DNA of 38,805 nt from Halothiobacillaceae bacterium (GTDB lineage: Bacteria > Pseudomonadota > Gammaproteobacteria > Halothiobacillales > Halothiobacillaceae), in contig JAQVHL010000023.1 of NCBI GenBank assembly GCA_028696185.1, positions 1 to 38,805 on the forward strand, read 5' to 3'. This document shows positions 11,215 to 14,570 of this stretch, piece by piece. The notes below the pieces were generated by a model, which did no database searches, had not been told where the DNA came from, and saw only the letters and a program-made list of their open reading frames with translations. The position numbers were made by a program, and so were the translations under genes. How positions within the stretch are numbered: position 1 is the first letter of the stretch; every line of letters begins with the position of its first letter.

Positions 11215-13427
11215 GCACGGCGGTCGAAGCCTCCCGGCCGTTCTGGCAGCGTTCGGCGCTGTTGGCCTGGGGCGGATTTTCCGTGGTGCTGGGGCTGTTC
11301 ATCCTCTTGGTGCTGTATCAGACCCATCGGGCCGCCATCACGCAGAGCCTGGGGGTGGTTGACGATCTGGCGCGGACTTTCCAGGTGCGCACGACCGGCG
11401 TGCTCGGGGAGCTCGATGCGGCCGTGAGCGATGTCGCTCATCTTCTTTTGCACGAGGAGCAATCCACGGATCGCCTTGCGGAAATCCTGCGTCACCGTAA
11501 GCGCAGCAACCCGTTGGTGCTCGACATGCTGGTACTGGACGCCAGGGGGCAGGTGCGTGCCTGGAGCGGCGAGGGGATGCCGCCTGATGTCTCGGGGCAA
11601 GAGTATTTCCGGCATCATGCGGACACGCCGGACAGCACGATTCACCTCAGCCACCCCACCTTGTCCCTGACTCATGAGGGGGTCGGGTTCGTCGCCCTGT
11701 CGCGTGCCTTGCGCGATGCGTCGGGCCAGTTGCAGGGCGTTGGTGTTGCGCTTTTGCGCGTCGATGCCCTGGCCCGGCTGTATGCCTCGCTGCTGGAAGA
11801 CAGCCCGTTCTCGGTCACGCTGCTGCACCAGGACGGACGTTTTCTGCTGCGCGTTCCGGAGACGACGTTGTCTACGGGGGACGCGCTTGTTGTGCCGCCG
11901 GGGTTCAGCCTGCCGTTGCGGGAAGCAATGACCAATGCCGACTTTCCAGGTCTGGATGGACAGCGGCGCCTGGCATCGGGCCGGCCTGTCGGGCCTTATG
12001 ACCTTCTGGTGGTGGTTTCCGAGGAGCGCTCGCGGGCACGGGTCGGTTGGTGGCATAGCGTGGGCTGGCTATTTGTGTTGTGGTTGCTGGTTTCGCTGGC
12101 CGCCTTGTTTCCCGTGGTGCGTCTGGCGCGGCAGGAGTGGCGGCACGAAATGCGCTTGCGCCAGCTGACCCGTTCCCTGCCCGGTTTTGTCTATCAGTTG
12201 CAGTGTGACGCGCAGGGGCGGTTCCGCTTCAACTACGCCAGCGAAGGTGTGCGGCCTTTGTTCGGGGTGAGCCGCGAGGCGGCAGAAGCCGACGCGCAAT
12301 TGCTGCTGGGGATGATTCATCCCCAGGATTACGATCGGGTGATGCGCGAGAGCAAGGAAACGGCTGAAACCGGTCAGGTCTGGCACAGCGAATTCCGTAT
12401 CCGTCGTGCCGATGGCGATACCTTATGGGTGGAGGCGCGCGATACGCCGACGGCGCTTGCCGATGGAGGGATACTCTGGAACGGGTATGTCAACGAAATC
12501 ACCGGGCGCAAGAACCTGGAACTGGCGCTGAAAGCCAGCGAGGCGCGCTGGCGGGCGTATGTGGAAAATGCCAGTGACATCATTTACAGCCTGACTCCGG
12601 AGGGGGTGTTTTCCTACGTTTCCCCGGCCTGGACGGCGTTGCTTGGCCATGAGCCGGGTGAGGTGATTGGCGAGCCTTTCTCGCGTTTCGTGCATCCGGA
12701 GGATCTGCCGGCCTGCCGCAGCTATCTGCAAAAGGTACTGGAAACGGGCGAAAAGCAGGGCGCCCTCGAATACCGCGCGCAGCACCGGGATGGGCACTGG
12801 TGTTGGCATGTTTCGCGGGGGGCGCCCCTGCTCGACGCTCATGGCGAGGTGGTGAGCTATTTCGGCATCGCCCGTGACATCAGCGAGCGTAAGCTGGATG
12901 AGGAGGGCGTGCGCCGCCGCGCCATGCATGATCCGCTCACCGACCTGCCGAATCGTACGTTCTTCGATGAAATAGCCGGGCAGATCCTGCGTCGTGCGCG
13001 GCGCGAGCACGAACGGGCTGCCCTGCTGTTTCTCGATCTTGACGAGTTCAAGCCGGTCAATGACCGCCATGGCCATGGGGTGGGCGATAAACTGCTTTGC
13101 CAGGTAGCGGAGCGCCTGCGTTGCGGGTTGCGCGAGTCGGACGTGCTTGGGCGCATCGGCGGAGATGAGTTTGTCGTCCTGCTCGCGGAGCTGTTCCACG
13201 ATGAGGATGCTTTGCGCGTTGCGGAAAAACTGCGCGCGCTGGTGGCGTCACCCTTCGAGGTAGATGGGCTGGCGCTGCATGTTTCCAGCAGTATCGGTAT
13301 CGCGTTCTATCCTGAGCATGGCGAGGATGTGGTAACGCTGTCGCGTCATGCGGATCAGGCCATGTATGCGGCCAAGAATGCTGGGCGCAACCGGGTGATG
13401 ATCTGGAATCACCGCATGGAATCCTGA
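11211..13427 (+). CDS. Membrane PAS-PAS-GGDEF diguanylate cyclase
   Basis: The 738-aa product runs: transmembrane helix (about 15-37), a periplasmic sensor region of about 240 residues that looks like a double Cache domain, helix 2 (about 283-305), PAS (about 316-435), PAS with a PAC-like end IARDISERK (about 441-562) and GGDEF (about 570-735). The active site GGDEF is intact at 650-654, preceded by an intact inhibitory site RESD (641-644). It should therefore make cyclic di-GMP and be feedback-inhibited. No EAL domain is present. I chose the ATG at 11211, which overlaps the permease stop, because the first transmembrane helix follows directly. Coupling suggests that the sensor responds to the permease substrate or a related metabolite; this is inference. 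Confidence 0.92.
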   Translation: MSTAVEASRPFWQRSALLAWGGFSVVLGLFILLVLYQTHRAAITQSLGVVDDLARTFQVRTTGVLGELDAAVSDVAHLLLHEEQSTDRLAEILRHRKRSNPLVLDMLVLDARGQVRAWSGEGMPPDVSGQEYFRHHADTPDSTIHLSHPTLSLTHEGVGFVALSRALRDASGQLQGVGVALLRVDALARLYASLLEDSPFSVTLLHQDGRFLLRVPETTLSTGDALVVPPGFSLPLREAMTNADFPGLDGQRRLASGRPVGPYDLLVVVSEERSRARVGWWHSVGWLFVLWLLVSLAALFPVVRLARQEWRHEMRLRQLTRSLPGFVYQLQCDAQGRFRFNYASEGVRPLFGVSREAAEADAQLLLGMIHPQDYDRVMRESKETAETGQVWHSEFRIRRADGDTLWVEARDTPTALADGGILWNGYVNEITGRKNLELALKASEARWRAYVENASDIIYSLTPEGVFSYVSPAWTALLGHEPGEVIGEPFSRFVHPEDLPACRSYLQKVLETGEKQGALEYRAQHRDGHWCWHVSRGAPLLDAHGEVVSYFGIARDISERKLDEEGVRRRAMHDPLTDLPNRTFFDEIAGQILRRARREHERAALLFLDLDEFKPVNDRHGHGVGDKLLCQVAERLRCGLRESDVLGRIGGDEFVVLLAELFHDEDALRVAEKLRALVASPFEVDGLALHVSSSIGIAFYPEHGEDVVTLSRHADQAMYAAKNAGRNRVMIWNHRMES

Positions 13428-13530
13428 GGGCAAGAGGCATTTCAAATGCGGTGTGCGTTGCGAATTTTATGTTCATCGCCCTCGAAGGGGTGTGAACACC
13501 TTGGTGGCTGTTAAACGTTTCACTGAGGGC

Positions 13531-13723
13531 GTTTGCCAAACGAAGGTTTTAAGCGCCGGACGAAGGATTCCCCCCTTGGAGGTGCCATGGCCGGGGTCGT
13601 GGAGACCGGGTGAAAGGGCCATGGAGGGCCCATTTACCCGGCTTCCACAGGCCAGTCCACGGCGGTCCCAAGGGGGCAATTCCGTCCACCCACTCTCGTC
13701 CAACAAACCTTCGTTTGGCAGAC
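13531..13723. repeat. 193-bp palindromic (MITE-like) element; repeat copy 2
   Basis: The element lies between two convergent genes and is symmetrical about its centre. The ends GTTTGCCAAACGAAGGTTT (13531-13549) and 13705-13723 are inverted repeats matching at 18 of 19 positions. Inside are GGACGA/TCGTCC, CCCCTTGG/CCAAGGGG and a central hairpin with arms CCGGGTGAAAGGGCC and GGCCCATTTACCCGG around the loop ATGGAG. The central left half recurs on the minus strand at 358-250. A further perfect palindrome CTGAATCATTCAG follows at 13741-13753, and CGTTTC (13516-13521) mirrors GAAACG (13735-13740). There is no coding capacity and no transposase. The remaining parts of 13428-13775 show nothing else. 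Confidence 0.8.
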
Positions 13724-13775
13724 ATGCTCCAAAAGAAACGCTGAATCATTCAGACCCTGCGCCCAGCCCCAGACA

Positions 13776-14570
13776 TCAGACAATAAGCCGCCGACGCACC
13801 AGCGCCACAGCCAGCAGATAAAACCCCAGCGCATACGCGAACAGCACGCCCAGGTGCAGGAGCACATCACTTGAAGGCAGCCCCAGCACCAGCGGCCGGA
13901 TCAGCGCTACGGCATGCGTCAGCGGCAGCCACTGGGCCAAGGACTGCACGCCTGCCGGCAGGGTGTCCAGCGGGTAGAACACGCCACAAAGCATGAACAT
14001 CGGCGTGACAACCAGCACAAAATAGTAATTGAAGAAGTCGTAATTGCCGGCCACCGCACTCATGGCCATGGCCGGCCCGGCAAAGGCCAGCCCCACCAGA
14101 AATACCACCGGCAGCGCCCACAGTGCGCCGAAGCCGCCGACCACCCCCAGCGCGGCCGCCACCAGCAGGATGGCCGCCGCGCTGATCACCCCCTTGCTGG
14201 CACACCAGAGCATCTCGCCCGCCAGGATGTCGTCGATGTCCAATGGTGTGGCCAGGAGCGCATCGTAGGTTTTCTGCGGCACCATGCGCGTGTAGACCGA
14301 ATACATGCCCTCGTAGCTGACGGTGACCATGGCCGAGGAGGCGACGATGCCAGAGGCGAGAAACGCGAGGTACGGCAATCCGCCCACCTCGCCGACAAAG
14401 GCGCCCAGACCGAGGCCCAGACCGAGCAGGTAGATCAGCGGTTCGCCGAAATTCAGCACCAGGGCAGGGCCGATGATGCGTTGCCAGACCAGGAAATTGC
14501 GCCGCCAGACGGCCAGAGCGTCGCGGCGCAAACGGGGAAGACGCCAGTCCAGATCAAGCCAGGGCTTCAT
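13776..14570 (-). CDS. ABC-2 type transporter permease (NodJ-like)
   Basis: The 264-aa product is an integral membrane protein with about six helices. Typical NodJ/ABC-2 blocks are WQRIIGPALVLNFGEPLIYLLGLGLGLG near the N-terminus, TRMVPQKTYDALLATPLDIDDILAGE in the cytoplasmic coupling loop, and MFMLCGVFYPLDTLPAGVQ before the last helices. The ABC-2 family exports lipids, polysaccharides or lipo-oligosaccharides; the cargo here is unknown. Its ATG overlaps the stop of the ATPase gene (ATGA, 14567-14570), so the two form one exporter. It is convergent with the diguanylate cyclase gene across the palindromic element. Confidence 0.85.
   Translation of the reverse strand: MKPWLDLDWRLPRLRRDALAVWRRNFLVWQRIIGPALVLNFGEPLIYLLGLGLGLGAFVGEVGGLPYLAFLASGIVASSAMVTVSYEGMYSVYTRMVPQKTYDALLATPLDIDDILAGEMLWCASKGVISAAAILLVAAALGVVGGFGALWALPVVFLVGLAFAGPAMAMSAVAGNYDFFNYYFVLVVTPMFMLCGVFYPLDTLPAGVQSLAQWLPLTHAVALIRPLVLGLPSSDVLLHLGVLFAYALGFYLLAVALVRRRLIV

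Follow-up and report, generated by a model that had tools for sequence, protein, structure and literature searches.

A palindromic repeat family carrying TwoAYGGAY RNA motifs in a Halothiobacillaceae genome, with a probable single-hairpin remnant

TwoAYGGAY (RF01731) is an RNA family that has remained an orphan since 2010, when it appeared in a listing reportedly made by Weinberg et al. That listing enters it as a probable RNA that is not cis-regulatory (PMC2864571), and another paper proposed from motif matches that it is a CsrA-binding sRNA (PMC4333381). The CsrA/RsmE site is described as an ANGGAN hexaloop in which the A and the GGA are contacted and the N positions vary; the CsrA SELEX consensus is RUACARGGAUGU, and very long, stable stems were unfavourable in that selection (PMC7652899). 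The CsrA-sequestering sRNAs of the CsrB/RsmZ type carry repeated hairpins with GGA loops. As for mobile elements that yield sRNAs, a review names QMITE of Coxiella, a bacterial MITE (PMC10969869). Among open-licence PubMed Central papers, we found none that assigns TwoAYGGAY to a mobile element.

Here we analyse a palindrome in a 38,805-nt stretch of a Halothiobacillaceae bacterium (contig JAQVHL010000023.1, hereafter the window). The palindrome belongs to a multi-copy, structured repeat family of its host genome, and full-length members of that family carry TwoAYGGAY RNA motifs. This one genome yields 80-odd natural variants of the orphan family. From the sequence evidence we consider it fairly probable that an IS5-type mobile palindrome disperses putative CsrA-binding hairpins, and that the window copy is an internally deleted, MITE-like derivative left with a single hairpin.

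The window element and its setting

A preliminary description had placed a nested palindrome at 13531-13723, between convergent genes, and all of the symmetrical parts that it named are present. The outer arms (13531-13549 and 13705-13723) are complementary at 18 of 19 positions. Inside them lie the pairs GGACGA/TCGTCC (13558-13563 and 13696-13701) and CCCCTTGG/CCAAGGGG (13572-13579 and 13668-13675), followed by central 15-bp arms (13606-13620 and 13627-13641) in which a single A:A mismatch and a single G:T pair occur. These enclose the plus-strand loop ATGGAG (13621-13626), which conforms to ANGGAN and has its GGA on the plus strand only. Viewed as one 54-nt arm pair, 13567-13620 and 13627-13680 are 72% complementary. 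Folded as RNA, 13531-13723 reaches -112.5 kcal/mol on the plus strand (z -8.3) and -115.8 kcal/mol on the minus strand (z -8.8), in each case with none of 200 shuffles as good.

The palindrome thus stood as described, and its limits proved slightly short. The terminal inverted repeats (TIRs) reach from 13525 to 13729, making the entire element 205 bp, flanked by ACT and CAA. The left TIR, GAGGGCGTTTGCCAAACGAAGG (13525-13546, plus strand), has one mismatch to the genome form GAGGGTGTTTGCCAAACGAAGG, and the right TIR (13708-13729, minus strand) reads GAGCATGTCTGCCAAACGAAGG on its own strand. Between them, we could assign each part to a piece of a full-length unit. The A arm (13549-13612, plus strand) and the B arm (13635-13706, minus strand) are homologous to the outer arms of two TwoAYGGAY copies, A to that of one copy and B to that of the other, which is inverted. 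The central hairpin (13606-13641, plus strand; left side TGAAAGGGCC, right side GGGCCCATTTA) corresponds to TwoAYGGAY hairpin 1. The window copy keeps one A-N-GGA-loop hairpin, not two, TwoAYGGAY hairpin 2 having been lost. It gives no RF01731 match at E 10, and an Rfam search of the region returned one sub-threshold, unrelated match and, at E 10, only sub-threshold matches of the microRNA type and similar. It is probably an ordinary degraded remnant, a decaying copy with a single hairpin.

The convergent setting is also borne out: a GGDEF/PAS protein gene ends at 13427, and an ABC-2 permease has its stop at 13776. We found no terminator or promoter site within the element. One could suppose that it is a domesticated MITE acting as a cis-regulatory 3'-UTR CsrA site of the upstream GGDEF (diguanylate-cyclase) gene, as the coding strand of that gene carries the loop ATGGAG ~100 bp beyond the stop. 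We judge this very unlikely indeed, because the element offers a single hairpin on a very stable stem and no homologous insertion beside this gene is known in a relative.

A repeat family with the ends of an IS5-family element

Searching the host genome (2.92 Mb in 112 contigs) with the window element, we obtained 84 stretches that match with an E-value of 10 or better. Copies in the host are thus plural, and conserved symmetry is found in relatives as well. About 10 of the 84 span most of the query. The majority of the remainder are half-copies, covering query positions 19-104 or 83-188, which flank a core of ~500 bp or stand back to back within tandem arrays. The sequences of contigs C54 and C72 overlap, and some repeats at contig ends may have been counted twice. 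From the mapped pieces, a full unit reads TIR, B arm, hairpin 1, hairpin 2, A/T-rich hairpin and linker, then A/T-rich hairpin, hairpin 2, hairpin 1, A arm and TIR. It is a palindrome of ~640-740 bp, with one TwoAYGGAY on the plus strand and a mirror-image set on the minus strand; an example of 739 bp lies at C65:90950-91688 (L053). In arrays, an inner unit of ~640-690 bp is repeated within a single TIR pair. When named genomes were scanned for the exact pattern, in a collection that may omit the host itself, the B-arm motif was found in only three MAGs, two labelled Halothiobacillus or Halothiobacillaceae and one labelled Gammaproteobacteria. Against a phage origin, no full unit is matched among 50,697 phage records; among plasmid records, the A/T-rich hairpin region alone is common to three.

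With at most two mismatches allowed, the TIR GAGGGTGTTTACAAAA is found at 85 sites, and a reversed control pattern at none. Pairing these sites within the sequence stretches examined yielded an IS and 24 elements without transposase (136-1404 bp), 25 in all, and left 63 further TIR sites unpaired and outside the 24. Identical 3-bp flanks bound 8 of the 24 paired elements, compared with a mean of 2.3 when right flanks are permuted (p 2e-5). Seven of these duplications are TNA (TGA five times, TCA and TTA once each) and one is AAA. TNA is the sequence of 12 left flanks and of 9 right flanks. Duplications of the TNA type are usual for the IS1031 subgroup of the IS5 family. Such target duplications, which the preliminary description proposed to look for, occur in the family and are absent from the window copy and from 15 further elements of the 24.

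The host genome contains two DDE_Tnp_1 transposases. One belongs to an intact 1220-bp IS on contig C17 (positions 2-1221; L085:2-1221) with ends GAGGGTGTATCCAAAA and right flank TCA; its ends are closely similar to the TIRs of the palindrome family, and its transposase matches the IS5-family model NF033580 at 175 bits against a cut-off of 110. This transposase, a single open frame of 389 aa, has an extra N-terminus with an IS630/Tc3-like helix-turn-helix, in which it differs from the IS5 family. The other DDE transposase (C78) is of the IS4 family and was set aside. Chimeras connect the IS with the non-coding elements: one MITE end on C54 and C72, possibly a single place on overlapping contigs, bears the exact IS-type terminal 16-mer; a chimera at C75:21813-22006 has its left end from the IS and its right end from a MITE; and on C64 an IS left end directly adjoins a MITE.

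The palindrome family is of the MITE type, non-autonomous and transposon-like, in keeping with the mobile-element half of the preliminary description. As in bacterial MITEs, there are multiple copies, 24 of them TIR-paired, which are short and non-coding and form stable stem-loops; TIRs are present, in the window copy too, some copies show duplications, and the genome holds a related IS. The family departs from such MITEs in carrying a conserved RNA family that is found in several gammaproteobacterial families, and in amplifying its internal units in tandem within one TIR pair. With the IS5 family it shares the transposase model, similar termini and 3-bp duplications that are often TNA, whereas the palindrome elements themselves encode no transposase. 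An IS5-family transposase probably mobilizes this MITE-like family, a reading to which the closely similar and chimeric ends within one genome lend good support. Five genomes of a related genus (g2), all carrying the repeat, gave no close homologue of the C17 transposase, so that mobility there would need another enzyme or one since lost.

A different account would make the element structural DNA or a terminator between convergent genes, of the REP/BIME kind: a bidirectional terminator, an mRNA 3' protector or a gyrase/IHF site. The position of the window copy and its strong hairpin on either strand would suit such a role. We nevertheless regard it as quite improbable, because the element contains no terminator-like site and its family has TIRs, an excess of 3-bp duplications and RF01731 content. 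REP/BIME sequences are palindromes of 20-40 nt with a RAYT transposase, from which the host units differ in bearing TIRs and in being far longer.

TwoAYGGAY RNAs and their covarying stems

RF01731 has 83 matches in the host genome, 73 of them above the gathering score, and no match in 14 control genomes. Scores of full copies reach 60 bits in the host; in relatives they are 66-72 bits. Of 27 genomes in the host's family, 17 have the motif, with up to 43 copies in one relative; in one genus (g3), 9 of 10 genomes are without it. Of 274 genomes sampled from the class, 18 have it, often in multiple copies and sometimes as inverted pairs. Some other gammaproteobacterial families also hold several TwoAYGGAY copies per genome (L131-L148). 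Like the Rfam family, the full copies contain two A-N-GGA-loop hairpins and score above gathering. Rfam treats TwoAYGGAY as an RNA motif, whereas the host copies lie as inverted pairs within TIR-bounded, multi-copy palindromes.

We extracted the two-hairpin core from 82 of the 83 host hits, the remaining one being cut by the extraction. In these 82 cores of 59 nt, 39 of them distinct, 98.5% of cells are paired. Cells changed on both sides number 93; shuffles give 33.4 (SD 5.6), and sliding the alignment leaves no more than 10. The host copies are related, so that these covarying cells do not represent independent events. The alignment has a covariation score of 0.293, and shuffles 0.146 (0 of 500 as high). 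Two other measures show no excess over shuffles: pairs with a double change (8 of 22), for which shuffles give 7.1 and 194 of 500 shuffles reach 8, and further pair types, 13 where shuffles give 17.4. For hairpin 2 there are at least four fully compensated alleles. Compensatory changes between full copies are thus found, and the folded-RNA half of the preliminary description holds for the full-length copies, which match RF01731 and have covarying stems.

This variation also accounts for the central hairpin of the window copy. In the alignment, columns 3/26 alternate between A-U and G-C, and columns 6/23 between U-A and A-U. The window hairpin takes its left half, TGAAAG, from one allele and its right half, CATTTA, from the other, and joining the two gives exactly the G:T pair and the A:A mismatch noted above, which are the two pairs that covary between full copies. 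The central hairpin is a hybrid of two hairpin-1 alleles. We infer that the short form arose by loss of the core between the hairpin-1 copies: the two palindromic copies flanking the core would have recombined or slipped on each other, removing hairpins 2 and 3 with the linker, and the left half of one hairpin 1 would thereby have been joined to the right half of the other.

Beside the host and relative copies lies a third, covarying hairpin that the RF01731 model does not include. This A/T-rich hairpin, CTTTTGG-(GTTACTTTTCTTG..CAAGAAAAGTAAC)-TCGC, stands 3' of TwoAYGGAY at 14 of 21 non-host loci, counting one locus per genome and leaving out second copies (L149, L150) and a host locus (L135); one of the 14, from Pseudoalteromonas, was found through the third hairpin and is circular for it. 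Applied to 16 sequences (these 14 together with two from the host), RNAalifold gave 12 pairs, 11 of them with a compensated change. On the Pseudoalteromonas megaplasmid the third hairpin adjoins the RF01731 match (L178:1492-1681). On a fusobacterial plasmid, from Ilyobacter, it occurs at six places without an RF01731 match (L177:1501-1545).

Loop constancy and a putative CsrA sink

We then compared stems with loops in 238,493 bases of the host, in stretches chosen for holding the repeat. When hairpin 1 was searched by its stem alone with the loop left free, 127 of 129 had ANGGAN on one strand, with both N positions variable, and the other two had ATGAAT. Among 94 hairpin-2 copies that have the closing pairs AC..GT, the loop shows AGGA in 91. 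Stems that are free to vary around a nearly fixed A-N-GGA are the pattern expected of a CsrA ligand.

The same palindromes might instead belong to a selfish IS5-type MITE in which processes acting on the DNA itself (template switching or gene conversion between arms) keep the symmetry and the RNA is incidental. Symmetry is perfect on both strands, and a few discrete stem alleles are shuffled among copies (15 for hairpin 1 and 16 for hairpin 2, in 36 combinations); the tandem arrays and hybrid central hairpins also point this way. Correction between arms, however, leaves the constancy of the ANGGA and AGGA loops unexplained. Stems differ completely between genera, in a listing of relatives made by scanning for GGA, which by itself says nothing on loop conservation there. 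On balance we think a purely selfish origin rather unlikely.

The reading in which the palindromes disperse CsrA ligands would run as follows. TwoAYGGAY would be transcribed from the host elements, and each RNA would offer two hairpins whose terminal loops, ANGGA and AGGA, are the recognition element of CsrA/RsmE. These hairpins may bind CsrA, for which the host has one gene, and the dispersed RNAs could then serve as a CsrA sink. Two points count against this reading: sense and antisense RNA are expected from the two strands of the full-length unit, and stems of great length and stability were unfavourable in the CsrA SELEX. The likeness to CsrB/RsmZ lies in the repeated hairpins with GGA loops; the difference is that the putative CsrA ligands of the host are scattered over many loci and not gathered in one gene. 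CsrB identity itself was rejected, the best RF00018 match in the host reaching 17.7 bits against a cut-off of 71.

A broader proposal, which we put forward tentatively and with some doubt, is that TwoAYGGAY is a mobile RNA: a palindrome spread by an IS would scatter a CsrA-titrating RNA of two ANGGA hairpins and an undescribed third, on both strands and in tandem arrays, and its copy number would set CsrA activity in the host. If so, TwoAYGGAY would be a distributed CsrB, selfish or domesticated. The family suggests that a transposon-like element could carry and multiply the RNA sink of a global regulator, and both the function of TwoAYGGAY (CsrA binding) and its spread (IS5 transposase) become directly testable.

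On the overlapping contigs C54 and C72 (L086:1-300 and L087:1-200), an insert of ~63 bp lies inside hairpin 2, three times in tandem, and holds a hairpin of its own, TTGGGGC-ATGGAT-GCCCCAA. Of the 27 hairpins of this type in the stretches examined, 26 show ANGGAN on one strand. In the two that were compared with TwoAYGGAY for strand, at C15:105672 and on C72, the GGA is on the opposite one.
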